Below the pieces are notes generated by a model. It was not told the origin of the DNA. It saw nothing but the letters and a program-made list of their open reading frames with translations, and ran no database searches. Of a stretch of 64,000 bases of DNA, positions 3,071 to 33,981 are shown one piece after another. The stretch is from an uncultured Cocleimonas sp. GTDB taxonomy: Bacteria > Pseudomonadota > Gammaproteobacteria > Thiotrichales > Thiotrichaceae. The first letter of the stretch is position 1. Each line of letters starts with the position of its first letter. The DNA lies in NCBI RefSeq assembly GCF_947495625.1, contig NZ_CANLZW010000021.1, positions 1 through 64,000 on the forward strand. The letters run 5' to 3'. A program made the position numbers and the translations under genes.

Positions 3071-3099
3071 GAAAAACTGCCTAAAAGTAGGGGGGTGAC
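3071..3099 (+). repeat. dispersed G-run element, full copy 3
   Basis: A-tract GAAAAAC, then TGCCTAA, then AAGTAGGGGGGTGAC. It lies between the 5' ends of two divergent genes, so it is not at a transcript end here. Confidence 0.85.
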
Positions 3100-27251: not shown

Positions 27252-27431
27252 TTAGGACTTTGGACCTGCAAAGAACCATACGATAAGACCTAGAACTGGT
27301 AAAAATACGATTATTAATGTCCATAGTAATTTACCTCCAGTACTTGTTCCGCTATTCATCACTTTTATTATTGCCAGAATATCCAAAATCAGTACGATTA
27401 AACCAAATATTCCACCTACTTCGATTCCCAT
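27252..27431 (-). CDS. PLDc_N-type small membrane protein (59 aa)
   Basis: This short gene starts at 27431 with AAGGAG seven bases upstream. It encodes MGIEVGGIFGLIVLILDILA and continues to a second membrane segment WTLIIVFLPVLGLIVWFFAGP. The second helix with P-x-LG-x-IVWFFAGP is the hallmark of the phospholipase-D-nuclease N-terminal domain, found alone in many small stress-related membrane proteins. It heads the downstream end of a minus-strand cluster of small stress-type genes. Confidence 0.82.
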   Translation of the reverse strand: MGIEVGGIFGLIVLILDILAIIKVMNSGTSTGGKLLWTLIIVFLPVLGLIVWFFAGPKS

Positions 27432-27507: not shown

Positions 27508-27954
27508 CTACCAGTCTTTGCGTTTCTGTACTGTCATTTCTTTATCGTAGTCAGAAGCTAGATCAGCTTTTTCTTTGTCGGTGAGTACTTTTCCACCCAT
27601 TTGAAAAACTTCATGCTCTTCCTCATCTAAGTGATGATGAATTTTATGTTGTAGTTTTTTTGCTTCTACTAACCAGGCAGATGAGCTGTAGTCAGTTTCT
27701 TCCAGTTTCTCAATCATTTCATCTATTTCATGGTGTTCTGCGACGCTGTGACGTGATTTTTCCTGGGTTAAGTCATGCTCCATAAGTGGAATATAAAAAT
27801 GCCTTTCCTCAGCAGCAGCATGGGCTTTAAGTTCTATCTTCAATTTTGAAAACATCTCATCTCGTGACGCGGTATCTCCATGTGTTTGAATGAGTTCTTC
27901 TGCAATGTCACGTTGAACATCATGATCCTTTCTTAATGCTTCAAATATATTCAT
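27508..27954 (-). CDS. hemerythrin HHE-domain protein
   Basis: This 148-residue all-helical protein carries the di-iron hemerythrin ligand pattern: H in LRKDHDVQ, H-x4-E in LKAHAAAEERHFY, H in VAEHHEIDEM, and H-x4-E in HHHLDEEEHEVF. Such proteins bind oxygen, NO or iron. It belongs to a minus-strand run with DUF1840, coiled-coil and PLDc_N genes, each with its own good Shine-Dalgarno sequence. A role in oxidative or general stress is inferred from this company. Confidence 0.88.
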   Translation of the reverse strand: MNIFEALRKDHDVQRDIAEELIQTHGDTASRDEMFSKLKIELKAHAAAEERHFYIPLMEHDLTQEKSRHSVAEHHEIDEMIEKLEETDYSSSAWLVEAKKLQHKIHHHLDEEEHEVFQMGGKVLTDKEKADLASDYDKEMTVQKRKDW

Positions 27955-28040: not shown

Positions 28041-28346
28041 CTATTCGTATTCCCACATGACTGATTGATTCTTCTTTACGGCCATGTTGAGAAGCTCCAC
28101 TAAGGGGAAGGCTCTGTTTTTAAAAGATACAGAATCATCTTTAGCTTTAGCATCTTCGGCAGTTACTGGCTGAACAGTTGAGATGCTACTTGCATGTTTA
28201 ATAAGGTTAATGGCTGCAGGAATATCTTCAGGGTTCATTGCTCCTGGTATATTTCCACTCATTTCCATAACTTTGAGCATGCTTTGAGCATCTTTTTCAA
28301 ACATGGATATTTTTTGTCCATTGATGTAACTGAAATTTACCAACAT
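28041..28346 (-). CDS. DUF1840 family protein
   Basis: This 101-residue cytoplasmic protein begins MLVNFSYINGQKISMFEKDAQSMLKVM and has GNIPGAMNPEDIPAAINLIK, the typical DUF1840 pattern. The C-terminal part (RAFPLVELLNMAVKKNQSVMWEYE) is also standard. The function is not known to me. It sits between the coiled-coil and hemerythrin genes, probably co-transcribed. Confidence 0.85.
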   Translation of the reverse strand: MLVNFSYINGQKISMFEKDAQSMLKVMEMSGNIPGAMNPEDIPAAINLIKHASSISTVQPVTAEDAKAKDDSVSFKNRAFPLVELLNMAVKKNQSVMWEYE

Positions 28347-28418: not shown

Positions 28419-28685
28419 CTAAGAAAATGCTTTTCTCATACGATCATAAGCATCAGTAAAGCCATCTTTTAGTGAATCCCATGCATCATCTGAAGCATCA
28501 GCTACTTTATTGAGCCATTCTTTCGCTTCATTTCGTTGCTCTTTTAATTCTTCAACCTTTTCTTTATATTCAATTTCAGCATCCGCTGAAGCCTGGTCTG
28601 CTTTAACCTGATATCTTTCAATGTTTGCTTCAAGTTCATCAAGTTGTGCTTTCATTTTATTAATGTATGCATGTTTGGTATCCAT
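28419..28685 (-). CDS. small coiled-coil stress-type protein
   Basis: The ATG at 28685 (MDTKHAYINKMKAQL) is chosen because AAGGAG lies seven bases upstream; the frame is open further to 28748 but without a site. The 88-residue product is almost wholly helical and charged (LDELEANIERYQVKADQA, then KVEELKEQRNEAKEWLNKV), predicting a coiled coil, and ends in an amphipathic tail. It resembles small Sll1863-type stress proteins. It is the first gene of the minus-strand cluster. Confidence 0.75.
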   Translation of the reverse strand: MDTKHAYINKMKAQLDELEANIERYQVKADQASADAEIEYKEKVEELKEQRNEAKEWLNKVADASDDAWDSLKDGFTDAYDRMRKAFS

Positions 28686-28877
28686 TTCAAAACTCCTTTT
28701 AATTAGATAATTAGTGACAAATAAAACTGGTTGAATCCACTTGAGCAATTTTTCCAGCCTCTTTCAAATTCACATTGATAGTGTCTATGTATCAACGTTA
28801 TGAGAATGTTACATCTGTAAATGAATCAGGGAATTCAGTTAACTCTGTTAACACTGTAGGGATTTTGTTGGACTCTA

Positions 28878-28895
28878 TGTAAGTCTTGTCTTACA
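28878..28895. promoter_or_regulatory. GacA-box-like dyad 1
   Basis: TGTAAGTCTTGTCTTACA is a perfect match to TGTAAG-N6-CTTACA, the upstream activating sequence described for GacA at rsm RNA genes in pseudomonads. The centre is 50 bases from dyad 2. The NarL/GacA-type regulator at 31638-32285 is the candidate binder. Confidence 0.7.
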
Positions 28896-28927
28896 ACAGA
28901 AATTCTATCTGTCGCTGCTGCACATTG

Positions 28928-28945
28928 TGTAAGACGACACTTACA
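28928..28945. promoter_or_regulatory. GacA-box-like dyad 2
   Basis: TGTAAGACGACACTTACA again matches TGTAAG-N6-CTTACA exactly. The 50-base phasing to dyad 1 is close to five helical turns, which fits cooperative binding on one DNA face. Confidence 0.7.
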
Positions 28946-29153
28946 TTTTTTACCGCATGTTCTGATTTTCGATGAAGCACTAAGGCTTTAAGGTTGAGAT
29001 AGGCTAGGAATCAAGACTAGTCGTTTTTGATGCTCTAAATAAGATTGAAAGTTGAAGTACTTTTAATTGTTGCTGTCTCTTAACAGAAGATGTCTCTGAG
29101 TCGATATATTTGAGCAATAACCGAAAAAAATAAGGTAATCAATCACAAAAATT

Positions 29154-29336
29154 ATGAAATATTATTCAATTACATATGCCGTACTTGCTATAGCATTTGG
29201 CTTGCTTGGGTTCTTCTTTCTGGAGAGTGGTAGCATGAAATATATCTTCAAAACCCTAGGTATTATTTTTACCATAATCGCAGTTATTGGCTTTGCTCTT
29301 GAGCATTATTTTTCTGATAGAGATAATTCTGAGTAA
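29154..29336 (+). CDS. small two-helix membrane protein (60 aa)
   Basis: Two hydrophobic segments (ITYAVLAIAFGLLGFFFL and YIFKTLGIIFTIIAVIGFAL) are joined by a short loop, with a polar acidic tail. I do not recognise a family. It is divergent from the stress-gene cluster across the two dyads and ends at a strong terminator, so it is likely its own unit. Confidence 0.65.
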   Translation: MKYYSITYAVLAIAFGLLGFFFLESGSMKYIFKTLGIIFTIIAVIGFALEHYFSDRDNSE

Positions 29337-29447: not shown

Positions 29448-29609
29448 TTAATGTGGTCTTCGACCTGTAACAAACATTATCAATGACACAATTAAACCAA
29501 CAACAAAAAGAATCCATGCAATGTTAGTCGCAGTACCTGCTATTCCACTAAGTCCCAGAAGGCCTGCGATAATTGCTACTATTAAAAATATTACGGCTAG
29601 ATTAATCAT
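29448..29609 (-). CDS. DUF1328 (YtjA-type) small membrane protein (53 aa)
   Basis: This short gene starts at 29609 with AAGGAG seven bases upstream. It encodes MINLAVIFLIVAIIAGLLGL and continues with SGIAGTATNIAWILFVVGLI before ending GRRPH. The G-L-L-G-x2-GIAG-x-A-x2-IAW-I-LF motif is the DUF1328/UPF0391 signature. These two-helix proteins accompany general stress genes in many proteobacteria; the mechanism is unknown. It is divergent from the histidine kinase gene. Confidence 0.88.
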   Translation of the reverse strand: MINLAVIFLIVAIIAGLLGLSGIAGTATNIAWILFVVGLIVSLIMFVTGRRPH

Positions 29610-29849: not shown

Positions 29850-31208
29850 ATGGATAAGATGAAAAAGAATTTTCTACAAGACATGAGTCGCAACCGCCTT
29901 CATATATTGTTTAGTATTTTCAGTGCGATAATCATCATCCTATTCGTTTTCTTTTTAAAATTCGTATATGACTCAAAAGCCTCAATAAACTCGACGCGTA
30001 TTAATGCACTGCATCTTGATTACAGTGATCGACTTTTGATTAATATGTTGAATATTCAAACGGGTGCAAGAGGGTATTTGTTATCAGATGACCCCGAATT
30101 CTTAGAGCCCTATAACGAAGGTATTAAAAACCTGGAAAACACCTTTGATTCAGTTGAAAAACATTGGCCAGATTATTTGAGTCAGCGAGAGATAGACGCC
30201 TTAGAATCAGAAGTGAAAAAAACCATTGTTCAGATATCTGATTTGGTGAGCCAAAAAGCACTTGATCAGAAAACCAGAATTTCAGAATTTGATGTTACAA
30301 AAAAACTGATGGATAGTTTACGCGACAGAATTTCTGAAATTAGGCAAACGATAAAAGAGAGTAATGCCAAGAATACTCAAGATAATTTAAATTCCTTAAA
30401 TCTAATAAAGTGGTTATTGATACTACTCATTCTGATTGCATTTGGGTTGTTGTTTTTGTCTTTTGCGTTAACCGAACGCCAACAAAAAATGTTAAAAAAT
30501 CACGCTGATGATATCGCTTTACGAAATAAAGAATTAGAAAAAACTGTCAATCAGAGGACTACAGATCTGGTTGATCTTGCGTCACATGTGACGACAACCA
30601 GTGAAAATGAAAAACAACGCCTTGCCAGAGAATTGCATGATGAATTGGGCGCACTTCTAACTGCTGCTCGTATGGACAGTACCTGGATCAGTCGCTCTAT
30701 TAATGAAGACCAAAAAGAAAAATTTGAAACCCGATTTACACGATTGATTGATTCGATTGATAAAAGTATTGCGCTAAAACGTCATATAACAACCAGTCTG
30801 GTTCCCCCTTTACTTAGGGAGATGGGCTTACATGAAGCAATCATTGCGATGACAGAAAATGATCCTAATCAGCCGCCAGCCACCTACCATGTCAAAATTG
30901 AAGACTCTCTCCCTGAGCTAGATAAAGACAGAGAACTCGCACTGTACCGTATCTGTCAGGAATCAATTAATAATATCTGGAAATATGCGAATGCTACCGA
31001 GGTATTCATCGAACTTAGCGTAGAAGATGATTTTTACTATTTAACCATTAAGGATAATGGCGAAGGTTTTGATCAAGCTCAAATAAAGAAAGGAACCCAT
31101 GGGCTAGCTGGAATTCGGGCACGAGCAGCAATGTTTAAAGGAACTATGGAAATTGAATCAGCACCGGGAAAAGGGACGATCGTTAAGAGTAAATTAACAG
31201 TTAGTTAA
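29850..31208 (+). CDS. CHASE3-domain sensor histidine kinase (HisKA_3, NarX-like)
   Basis: This 452-residue membrane kinase has helix 1 near residues 19-38, a periplasmic CHASE3-type helical sensor (LLINMLNIQTGARGYLLSDDPEFLEPY), helix 2 near 188-208 and a coiled-coil linker. The HisKA_3 dimerisation domain follows, with the phospho-accepting His in QRLARELHDELGALL (about residue 263), and then an HATPase domain (QESINNIWKYANA, DNGEGFD, GLAGIRARA). The start could also be the Met at codon 4. It belongs with the NarL-type regulator encoded convergently at 31638-32285. The signal is unknown. Confidence 0.9.
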   Translation: MDKMKKNFLQDMSRNRLHILFSIFSAIIIILFVFFLKFVYDSKASINSTRINALHLDYSDRLLINMLNIQTGARGYLLSDDPEFLEPYNEGIKNLENTFDSVEKHWPDYLSQREIDALESEVKKTIVQISDLVSQKALDQKTRISEFDVTKKLMDSLRDRISEIRQTIKESNAKNTQDNLNSLNLIKWLLILLILIAFGLLFLSFALTERQQKMLKNHADDIALRNKELEKTVNQRTTDLVDLASHVTTTSENEKQRLARELHDELGALLTAARMDSTWISRSINEDQKEKFETRFTRLIDSIDKSIALKRHITTSLVPPLLREMGLHEAIIAMTENDPNQPPATYHVKIEDSLPELDKDRELALYRICQESINNIWKYANATEVFIELSVEDDFYYLTIKDNGEGFDQAQIKKGTHGLAGIRARAAMFKGTMEIESAPGKGTIVKSKLTVS

Positions 31209-31209
31209 A

Positions 31210-31602
31210 TTACTTTTTAGCCGCTTCTTCTATCCAGTCCATCATTTCGAATAACTGATAGGACTTATCGTAGAAGCCCTGAATATCTTGTTCCAGACAC
31301 TTTTTCTTTAAATGCTTGGATGTATGATTGGTTAAAACCAGTTTCTCTGGTGTGCCATAAAGTTCCGGGTGATTATTGATTTCATTCAATACACCCAGAC
31401 CATTGCCTTCATTTAATTCAAGATCGGCAATAACCAGATTGGGTTTATGCTCTTCAATCTCATTAAGTGCCTGAATTTGCCGGTCAGCTGTTGCGACTAC
31501 ATTCACTTGTTCAATACTGTCCAGATTCTCCAGGACAATATCTCTGAGTAATGGGTTGTCCTCGACAAGGACAATGGATAATTTTTCTGTGTTTAAAGCC
31601 AT
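31210..31602 (-). CDS. single-domain response regulator receiver
   Basis: This 130-residue receiver has no output domain: acidic pocket VLVEDN, phospho-acceptor Asp in NLVIADLELNEGNG, Thr in LVLTNHTS and Lys in GFYDKSYQ. It stops one base after the kinase gene ends (convergent) and follows the NarL-type regulator by 35 bases on the minus strand, probably as one operon. Such CheY-like proteins can act as phosphate sinks or relay partners of the same kinase. Confidence 0.85.
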   Translation of the reverse strand: MALNTEKLSIVLVEDNPLLRDIVLENLDSIEQVNVVATADRQIQALNEIEEHKPNLVIADLELNEGNGLGVLNEINNHPELYGTPEKLVLTNHTSKHLKKKCLEQDIQGFYDKSYQLFEMMDWIEEAAKK

Positions 31603-31637: not shown

Positions 31638-32285
31638 TTATAGGTCTAGTTCATTTTCTATTAAGCCGTGGTTTACGGCATAAATAGCTAATTCTGCGTT
31701 ACTGTTCACACCCATTTTTTCCAGTAAACGCGAACGATAGGTACTGACGGTTTTAACGCTCAGATCGAGAATGTTAGCAATGTCAGAGACACTGGCACCT
31801 TCGCTGATACGCATAAATACCTGTAGCTCACGTTCTGATAAGTTTTTATGTGGTTCAGAGTCGTTTTCATTAAAGACCTCTCCAGCAAGTAATTCTGCTG
31901 TTTTGGAAGAGAGATAACGACGTCCCAGGGAAACGGTTCTTATTGCTTTGATTAAATCTTCCTGTTCGCAGTCCTTGCATAAATAACCATTTGCGCCATT
32001 TTTGATCATGGGTAGGGCGTATTGTTCTTCAGGGTGCCCGCTTAGTATAAGTACAGCTAGTTTTTCATAACGTTGACGAAGGTGTCTTAGTACATCCACG
32101 CCACTTTTATTTGGTAGTGAAATATCAAGCAACACAACATCGCAGGGATTATCTTTAAGATAATTAATGATATCTTCACCCGATGAAGCTTCGTACACAA
32201 CATTAAAATCAACTTCATCTTGTAACATTTCATTGAAGCCACGTCTTACGATTTCATGATCATCAACAATTGCAATTTTTACCAC
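31638..32285 (-). CDS. NarL/FixJ-family response regulator, GacA-like DNA-binding helix
   Basis: The 215-residue protein has a receiver (AIVDDHEIVRRGF, Asp in VVLLDISLPNKSG, Lys in GYLCKDCEQ) joined to a LuxR-type helix-turn-helix (NLSERELQVFMRISEGASVS, then VKTVSTYRSRLLEKM). The KTV-x2-YR-x-R recognition pattern is shared with GacA/UvrY, which fits the GacA-box-like dyads nearby (28878, 28928, 32506). It is probably phosphorylated by the HisKA_3 kinase. Whether it is the true GacA orthologue cannot be decided from sequence alone, and no BarA/GacS-type hybrid kinase is adjacent. Confidence 0.88.
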   Translation of the reverse strand: MVKIAIVDDHEIVRRGFNEMLQDEVDFNVVYEASSGEDIINYLKDNPCDVVLLDISLPNKSGVDVLRHLRQRYEKLAVLILSGHPEEQYALPMIKNGANGYLCKDCEQEDLIKAIRTVSLGRRYLSSKTAELLAGEVFNENDSEPHKNLSERELQVFMRISEGASVSDIANILDLSVKTVSTYRSRLLEKMGVNSNAELAIYAVNHGLIENELDL

Positions 32286-32505: not shown

Positions 32506-32523
32506 TGTAGGACATGTCCTACA
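32506..32523. promoter_or_regulatory. perfect 18-base palindrome, GacA-box variant
   Basis: TGTAGGACATGTCCTACA is perfectly self-complementary and fits TGTARG-N6-CYTACA, the same frame as the dyads at 28878 and 28928. It lies 221 bases from the regulator start and 268 from the outer-membrane gene start. Confidence 0.65.
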
Positions 32524-32578
32524 GTTCATTTTTGATAATTATACTCCATCGTCATCCTTTTATCGTTGTATCCAGTTG

Positions 32579-32596
32579 TGTAAGTCAAAGACTACA
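32579..32596. promoter_or_regulatory. imperfect GacA-box-like dyad
   Basis: TGTAAGTCAAAGACTACA keeps the left arm exactly and TACA on the right. It is centred 73 bases (about seven turns) from the perfect palindrome, on the side of the outer-membrane gene. Confidence 0.45.
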
Positions 32597-32790
32597 TTCG
32601 AATGTGATTCTGCTGACAGCCAGCAATTGATAATTTTTAGAAGATAGATTCCAAGATGAAGTTTGAAAAAAGCTTCTCGTTTATTTTATAACTTTCTCGT
32701 TACTTTATCTGAACAAAAAAGTTAACGAAAAATTAAACAAAGAAAATTTAAACACCATCTATTAATTTTTTATCAAAAAAGGAAAATGTT

Positions 32791-33981
32791 ATGACAAGGC
32801 AATCACTACTAAAAATAGCTATTTCAACGGCAATCGTTTCTGCAAGTTCAACAGCGGTTATGGCTGAACCATTGATTACAGATTATGAAAAAGCCACCTC
32901 AGCATACGAAGATGCTTATTTCTCAGGTAACTTGAATCTAGACAGTGGTAATCAGGATCAGACCAGCTACGATCTGGACTTATCTATCGATTATGAAAAA
33001 GTATTTAGCTCTAAGAACCGTAATACGAAATTGGACTTTTTAGGAACGGGAACGGTATCGAGAGGATCTAGTAGTGGTGATGATAGAGAAAGTACCTATC
33101 AGGCACTGGGTTCAGCAACTGTCGATAATTACTTTAATGCTGATAAGAGCAATGCATTCTGGTATGGCAAAGGTGAAGTAGGTGTTAAAAAAGGACAGGA
33201 AGATCCATTCACTAAAGCAACAGCTGGTGTTGGTTATGGTCGAGTAGTCAATGTCACTCCAATGGCGCGATCAATTCGTATCGTCCAGGAATTACGTGAA
33301 AATGGGTTTATAACGTCAGACCCTTCTAATGCGACCTATCAAAAGATTGCTCAAATCATCGAACGTGAAGCTGAGTATCGTTCTAAATACGGCTATGAGG
33401 ATTATGAGCAATACTGGGTTCAGGATATTGAAACCGAACTTAAAGCTAGCGGTTTGACAAATGGTGCCACTGGTTTGAACGCTAGAGCAATATTAAAGTC
33501 GTATGATGTTCTAGTGAATGAGCGAATCTCAACACGTAAGAGCGGCTGGTTAGTGCGCGCAGGTGTTGGTGCGGTATTATCAGATTATGATGGCGAAGAT
33601 GGCAAGCCAGCATTAGAAATAGGTGCTGAATACCACAAGCCTCTAAGTAATCGTACGCAGTTTTCTAACGAAGCTATTGCTACCGCAACACTTAAAGATG
33701 GCGATGACAGCTTTAACTTCAATAACGCTATGTCATTAACGCACGAATTAACTGACAAAATAGATTGGGAAAACAAGTGGACGCTGGATCATAATGAATC
33801 AGATACAGGTCCAGAACTTACAACCAACACGGTGGGTTCTACTTTCCTATATAGCTTGACTAACAAACTAGACTTTAGTGTTGAAGCAAGGTTGACTGAC
33901 ACTGATGATAGAATTGCCAATAACGGCAATGATGAATTGGATAAAAGTCTGACTATGGGTGTTAGATACCGTCTTAAGTAA
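32791..33981 (+). CDS. outer-membrane beta-barrel protein, unknown role
   Basis: This 396-residue protein has a signal peptide ending at VMA-EP. The mature sequence is dominated by alternating amphipathic strands (DLDLSIDYEKVF, LDFLGTGTVSR, GWLVRAGVGAVLSDYD, LDFSVEARLTDTDDR) and ends GVRYRLK. It resembles DUF481-type barrels, with a helical insert of about 90 residues in the middle (IVQELRENGF to YDVLVN). GGAAAA precedes the ATG. It has a long regulatory region and probably answers to the neighbouring two-component system. Confidence 0.72.
   Translation: MTRQSLLKIAISTAIVSASSTAVMAEPLITDYEKATSAYEDAYFSGNLNLDSGNQDQTSYDLDLSIDYEKVFSSKNRNTKLDFLGTGTVSRGSSSGDDRESTYQALGSATVDNYFNADKSNAFWYGKGEVGVKKGQEDPFTKATAGVGYGRVVNVTPMARSIRIVQELRENGFITSDPSNATYQKIAQIIEREAEYRSKYGYEDYEQYWVQDIETELKASGLTNGATGLNARAILKSYDVLVNERISTRKSGWLVRAGVGAVLSDYDGEDGKPALEIGAEYHKPLSNRTQFSNEAIATATLKDGDDSFNFNNAMSLTHELTDKIDWENKWTLDHNESDTGPELTTNTVGSTFLYSLTNKLDFSVEARLTDTDDRIANNGNDELDKSLTMGVRYRLK

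Follow-up and report, generated by a model that had tools for sequence, protein, structure and literature searches.

GacA-type dyads near a GacA-sister regulator in Cocleimonas: predicted operators of a putative envelope-stress regulon

The 18-bp inverted repeat TGTAAG-N6-CTTACA is the site of GacA (PMC4950607) and also the consensus of UvrY (PMC4682653). In Pseudomonas aeruginosa, rsmY and rsmZ provide the only significant GacA sites detected genome-wide (PMC9159945). GacA boxes are usually read as markers of the Rsm/Csr small RNAs. Stress sets containing genes of the CsbD, BON, DUF1328 and YqjD types are generally attributed to sigma factors (RpoS or SigB, for example). Outside model bacteria, the control of sll1863-, DUF883-, CsbD-, BON- and DUF1328-type genes is little explored, and a literature search found no paper treating CsbD, DUF1328 and a response regulator together.

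The window analyzed here, a stretch of 64,000 nucleotides from an uncultured Cocleimonas sp., carries the same 18-bp site as the GacS/GacA system of Pseudomonas and the BarA/UvrY system of E. coli, and its putative targets are of the kinds found in the general and envelope stress sets with CsbD/BON/DUF1328/YqjD-type clusters. Unlike the sets attributed to sigma factors, those of Cocleimonas appear to have a dedicated two-component system with its own operator. It is probable (about 0.8) that the dyads are binding sites of the NarL-type regulator encoded at 31638-32285, as part of an autoregulated system of CHASE3 kinase, REC protein and NarL-type regulator that would control an envelope-stress regulon directly. 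Such a system would newly pair a protein-coding stress regulon with an operator class and a regulator superfamily that are both known already.

The dyads and the genes around them

The original prediction, made from the letters of the window, rested on two perfect TGTAAG-N6-CTTACA dyads; both are exact and form the 18-bp inverted repeat of the GacA/UvrY box. It had overlooked three further sites: a third dyad (32506), a weaker dyad nearby (32579) and a fourth dyad beyond the window (72926). The dyads of the window are listed below, together with their state in the sister species Cocleimonas flava.

28878..28895, no strand: dyad 1, TGTAAGTCTTGTCTTACA, exact match; position and 50-bp pairing kept in C. 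flava, one arm base changed
28928..28945, no strand: dyad 2, TGTAAGACGACACTTACA, exact match; arms exact in C. flava
32506..32523, no strand: dyad 3, TGTAGGACATGTCCTACA, in the interval separating the regulator and DUF481 genes; arms kept in C. flava, spacer changed
32579..32596, no strand: weaker dyad, TGTAAGTCAAAGACTACA, one mismatch; overlaps an 88-bp conserved block

A first-order Markov model built on the window predicts 0.0044 exact dyads in a stretch of 64 kb and 0.32 in the genome. The assembly comprises 89 contigs (4.6 Mb), and a search of all of it for TGTARG-N6-CYTACA gave four places (28878, 28928, 32506 and 72926, all on the window's contig and within 44 kb), compared with one place for the reversed control. 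All four lie upstream of genes and fit TGTARGAC-N4-CYTACA on at least one strand. One-mismatch dyads number 23 genome-wide versus 30 in the control, which is background, so the signal is carried by the exact sites only. A dyad that was frequent across the genome and unlinked to the regulon would have spoken against the original prediction; it is rare, and its four places all lie within 44 kb around the regulator. Dyads 1 and 2, for which five-turn phasing had been claimed, begin 50 bp apart, which corresponds to about 4.8 helical turns of 10.5 bp. C. flava keeps this spacing, but precise phasing is not general, because other doublets are spaced by 73 bp (32506/32579), 38 bp (the same pair in C. 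flava) and 37 bp (in G375, a genome of another family).

Dyads 1 and 2 were correctly placed between divergent genes, with an sll1863-family gene starting at 28682 on the minus strand and the gene of a 60-aa membrane protein starting at 29154 on the plus strand. Dyad 3 is flanked by the regulator gene (start 32285, minus) and the divergent DUF481 gene (start 32791, plus).

27252..27431, minus: PLDc_N small membrane protein (Pfam), leftward unit; relative in the G164 cluster
27508..27954, minus: hemerythrin protein (Pfam), weakly like PA2171 (NCBIfam, below cut-off), leftward unit
28041..28346, minus: DUF1840 protein (Pfam), leftward unit
28419..28682, minus: stress protein of the sll1863 family (88.7 bits for NCBIfam NF052504, whose cut-off is 35), encoded first in the leftward unit
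29154..29336, plus: 60-aa membrane protein, putative rightward target
29448..29609, minus: DUF1328 small membrane protein (Pfam); relatives in the G375, G234 and G225 clusters
32791..33981, plus: DUF481 outer-membrane protein (Pfam), possible target

The dyad at 72926 is located 120 bp before an operon for a DUF883/YqjD-like protein, a weakly Holin-X-like membrane protein, a small protein and a membrane protein with a resemblance, and only that, to AI-2E transporters. The DUF883/YqjD-like label also denotes a general resemblance, as no Pfam family scored above its cut-off.

Conservation in the genus is consistent with this arrangement. In the 4.5 Mb of C. flava DSM 24830, exact dyads are limited to the same three promoters, and more than 100 bp of the DUF883-like promoter are identical to those of the source genome. 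Across 57 relatives, the source genome and C. flava have the highest dyad counts (4 and 3), the next being 2; a search with the regulator found a close relative of it, among the relatives' contigs, only in C. flava. Ten same-genus genomes lacking a close regulator contain no dyads, which is supporting evidence only, since those genomes are mostly smaller or less complete. Dyad-like sites in G013, G016, G033, G049, G050, G054 and G056, among others, were set aside: they are near unrelated genes and look like background.

The regulator and its relatives

Three genes between the two pairs of dyads encode the parts of a putative two-component system.

29850..31208, plus: sensor kinase with CHASE3, HisKA_3 and HATPase_c domains (Pfam)
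31210..31602, minus: stand-alone REC protein (Pfam)
31638..32285, minus: NarL-type response regulator of a GacA-sister clade, predicted dyad binder (Pfam REC and GerE; NCBIfam; tree; recognition helix)

The regulator has the features of the NarL/FixJ family, with PF00072 and PF00196 above cut-off and the motif LLDIS containing Asp54. The likely acceptor residues are His263 in the kinase, Asp60 in the REC protein and Asp54 in the regulator. Its best NCBIfam match is the UvrY/SirA/GacA model, at 186 bits versus the 280 required for membership. It also shares its domain make-up with MctR, EvgA and FimZ of the NarL family, whose models it matches at 104-148 bits, below the UvrY/GacA score and far below their own cut-offs. 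When E. coli UvrY was used as query, this regulator was the top match in both Cocleimonas genomes (36% identity, 150 bits; the next at 112); therefore no closer GacA is present, and the search found no GacA orthologue in either.

A maximum-likelihood tree places UvrY and the GacA-like rows in one clade of 16 rows (support 98/94). The Cocleimonas regulator is not a member of it, but groups in another clade with the two copies of G375 and that of G164 (100/99), and then with G234 and G127 (95/89). Since this clade is separate and well supported, the regulator is, as judged by its sequence, no GacA orthologue but a member of a sister subfamily. It nevertheless resembles UvrY in its recognition helix: SVKTVSTYRSR in Cocleimonas and SPKTVNSYRYR in UvrY, the stretch KTVSTYRSR agreeing with the GacA-type pattern K-T-[VI]-[NS]-[ST]-Y-R. 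The system also differs in its kinase, which is a simple CHASE3-HisKA_3 protein, unlike the hybrid kinases GacS and BarA.

The order of regulator, REC protein and convergent CHASE3-type kinase is the same in G375 and G164, which belong to different families. In several gammaproteobacterial families, CsbD-, BON-, DUF1328- and YqjD-type genes recur around regulators of the clade, whose neighbors also include ChaB, HSP20 and PLDc_N genes. When a matrix built from the Cocleimonas sites was applied, nine dyads were found within 3 kb of the regulator at the loci of G375 (two copies), G164 and G127, against 0.39 expected; the threshold and the 3-kb range were chosen after the sites had been seen, so that this count is indicative. 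No dyad above threshold was found by the same scan at two of the closest regulator loci (G234 and G280), and six more distant loci gave none, with 0.66 expected. For all 12 regulator loci together, the figures are nine dyads and about 1.3 expected. A stricter count over these loci (205 kb, at most one mismatch) gave four sites, compared with zero to two for five control patterns. By our reading, all nine matrix sites fall outside real genes, the small predicted ORFs over some of them being taken as spurious. The relatives' dyads near the regulator gene sit beside CsbD, DUF1328, BON, PLDc_N or DUF883-like genes. For instance, the 60-aa protein (34%, E 4e-6) and the DUF883-like protein (27%, E 5e-12) have homologues encoded beside the regulator and dyad of G164, an arrangement that connects the distant fourth site of Cocleimonas with this system.

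The proposed system and its alternatives

In the proposed mechanism, kinase, REC protein and regulator would form one phosphorelay. A signal, presumably envelope or general stress, would cause the kinase to phosphorylate the regulator, and the phosphorylated dimers would, as the fit between helix and site suggests, use the GacA-like helix to bind TGTARG-N6-CYTACA, in which AC usually follows one TGTARG arm. The pair at 28878/28928 would serve to control the divergent sll1863-DUF1840-hemerythrin-PLDc_N unit as well as the gene of the 60-aa membrane protein; occupation of 32506 (with 32579) would result in autoregulation and perhaps in control of the DUF481 gene; and binding 44 kb away would control the DUF883-like/holin-like operon. 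Activation, and not repression, is assumed by analogy, and the stand-alone REC protein may modulate the system.

The rarity and linkage of the dyads, their conservation in C. flava, the GacA-like helix and the co-occurrence of dyads with the clade in other families all argue for this mechanism, and the comparison thus favors the original proposal that a GacA-like regulator directly controls a stress regulon with no Rsm RNA involved. Its choice of the regulator at 31638-32285 is likewise favored, with the refinement that this protein is a sister of GacA and that the putative regulon also includes its own promoter and the DUF883-like operon. Several points count against the proposal: G234 and G280 gave no dyad above threshold, the matrix count of nine depends on limits chosen after inspection, and the four sites would make a small regulon, with three of them close to the regulator.

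It is important to consider whether the dyads could be classical GacA boxes driving a CsrA/RsmA-sequestering small RNA that has escaped recognition in 28683-29153. The dyad is the exact GacA/UvrY consensus, CsrA is encoded in the genome, and about 200 bp separate each dyad from the next gene, a distance from site to gene similar to that of GacA and UvrY. Even so, this reading is very improbable. The original prediction had seen no GGA-rich RNA here, and none that would sequester CsrA came to light at these sites: Rfam has no match within the window, RsmZ has none in the genome, and only three to four GGA motifs per strand are present in the 471 bp. Moreover, the genome has no GacA orthologue and the remaining dyads also precede protein genes. 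In contrast to GacA and UvrY, the Cocleimonas regulator appears to target protein-coding stress genes along with its own gene.

A different response regulator might instead bind the dyads, their link to the CHASE3 system being due to chance or co-regulation. The genome encodes many response regulators (35 matches to the one at 31638-32285), and NarL-type half-sites overlap between proteins. This alternative is unlikely, given that the linkage of dyad and regulator recurs in other families, that same-genus genomes without the regulator are also without dyads, and that the eight paralogues read have different recognition helices (KTVDKHR, GTVKLHV, RTVECHR and the like). Finally, T-runs come directly after dyads 2 and 3 in the source genome, as they might after weak transcription terminators, but C. 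flava does not keep those runs, and for this reason a terminator was discarded as an explanation. The stems of dyads 1 and 2 have just two G-C pairs, and no terminator is needed between genes that diverge; chance palindromes, for their part, are excluded by the genome-wide count and the Markov expectation. Either origin is hardly credible.

Direct control by the GacA-sister regulator is therefore preferred, and it has two implications. If a sister subfamily uses the same operator for protein-coding stress genes, as indicated here, the presence of a GacA box is not enough to infer an Rsm RNA. In addition, a candidate regulator and operator become available for stress genes of the sll1863, DUF883, CsbD, BON and DUF1328 types. 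A broader suggestion, which we hold tentatively and at slightly less than even odds, is that a widespread and apparently undescribed gammaproteobacterial system (CHASE3 kinase, stand-alone REC protein and GacA-sister regulator) uses GacA-type boxes to run an envelope-stress regulon dedicated to it, and that it is the sole user of this operator class in Cocleimonas, which keeps CsrA and lacks GacA.

Other elements in and around the window

Several further observations were made in these genomes. Both Cocleimonas genomes encode CsrA, but a GacA orthologue and an RsmZ-type RNA were found in neither. Two GTTAAC palindromes, 11 bp apart (AGTTAACTCTGTTAACA, window 28830-28870), adjoin dyads 1 and 2 and are conserved in C. 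flava; they are possibly the site of a second regulator or a promoter element. Between the regulator and DUF481 genes, an 88-bp intergenic block (32578-32665) shares 93% identity with C. flava, in contrast to much of the intergenic DNA around it, which diverges. A short GC stem and the greater part of the weaker dyad fall within this block, which may represent a promoter region or encode a small RNA. In G049, a genome with a regulator of the GacA clade, two near-perfect dyads of the same core (TGTAGGAAATATCCTACA and TGTAAGAAATATCTTACA, at L067:7287 and L068:6739) lie near genes resembling those of a D-aminoacyl-tRNA deacylase and a sugar transferase.

The 12-mer AGTAGGGGGGTG precedes two target promoters and was first read as a second element of the regulon; with 780 copies in the source genome it is not specific, and this role was ruled out. 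C. flava has 721 copies and the reversed control none. The 12 copies in the window are at 3086, 10538, 11361 (minus), 12589 (minus), 22916, 32431, 39417, 41262, 42887, 47053, 53561 and 57860, all but one of them intergenic; elsewhere, some copies form inverted pairs 43-44 bp apart. The consensus derived from 54 copies is aAAAAA..gcct.aAAGTAGGGGGGTGacttt. The element is confined to the genus, in which six of 12 genomes have 75-780 copies, with zero to two in the other six and in other genera, and it resembles a DNA-uptake-type or other high-copy oriented element.
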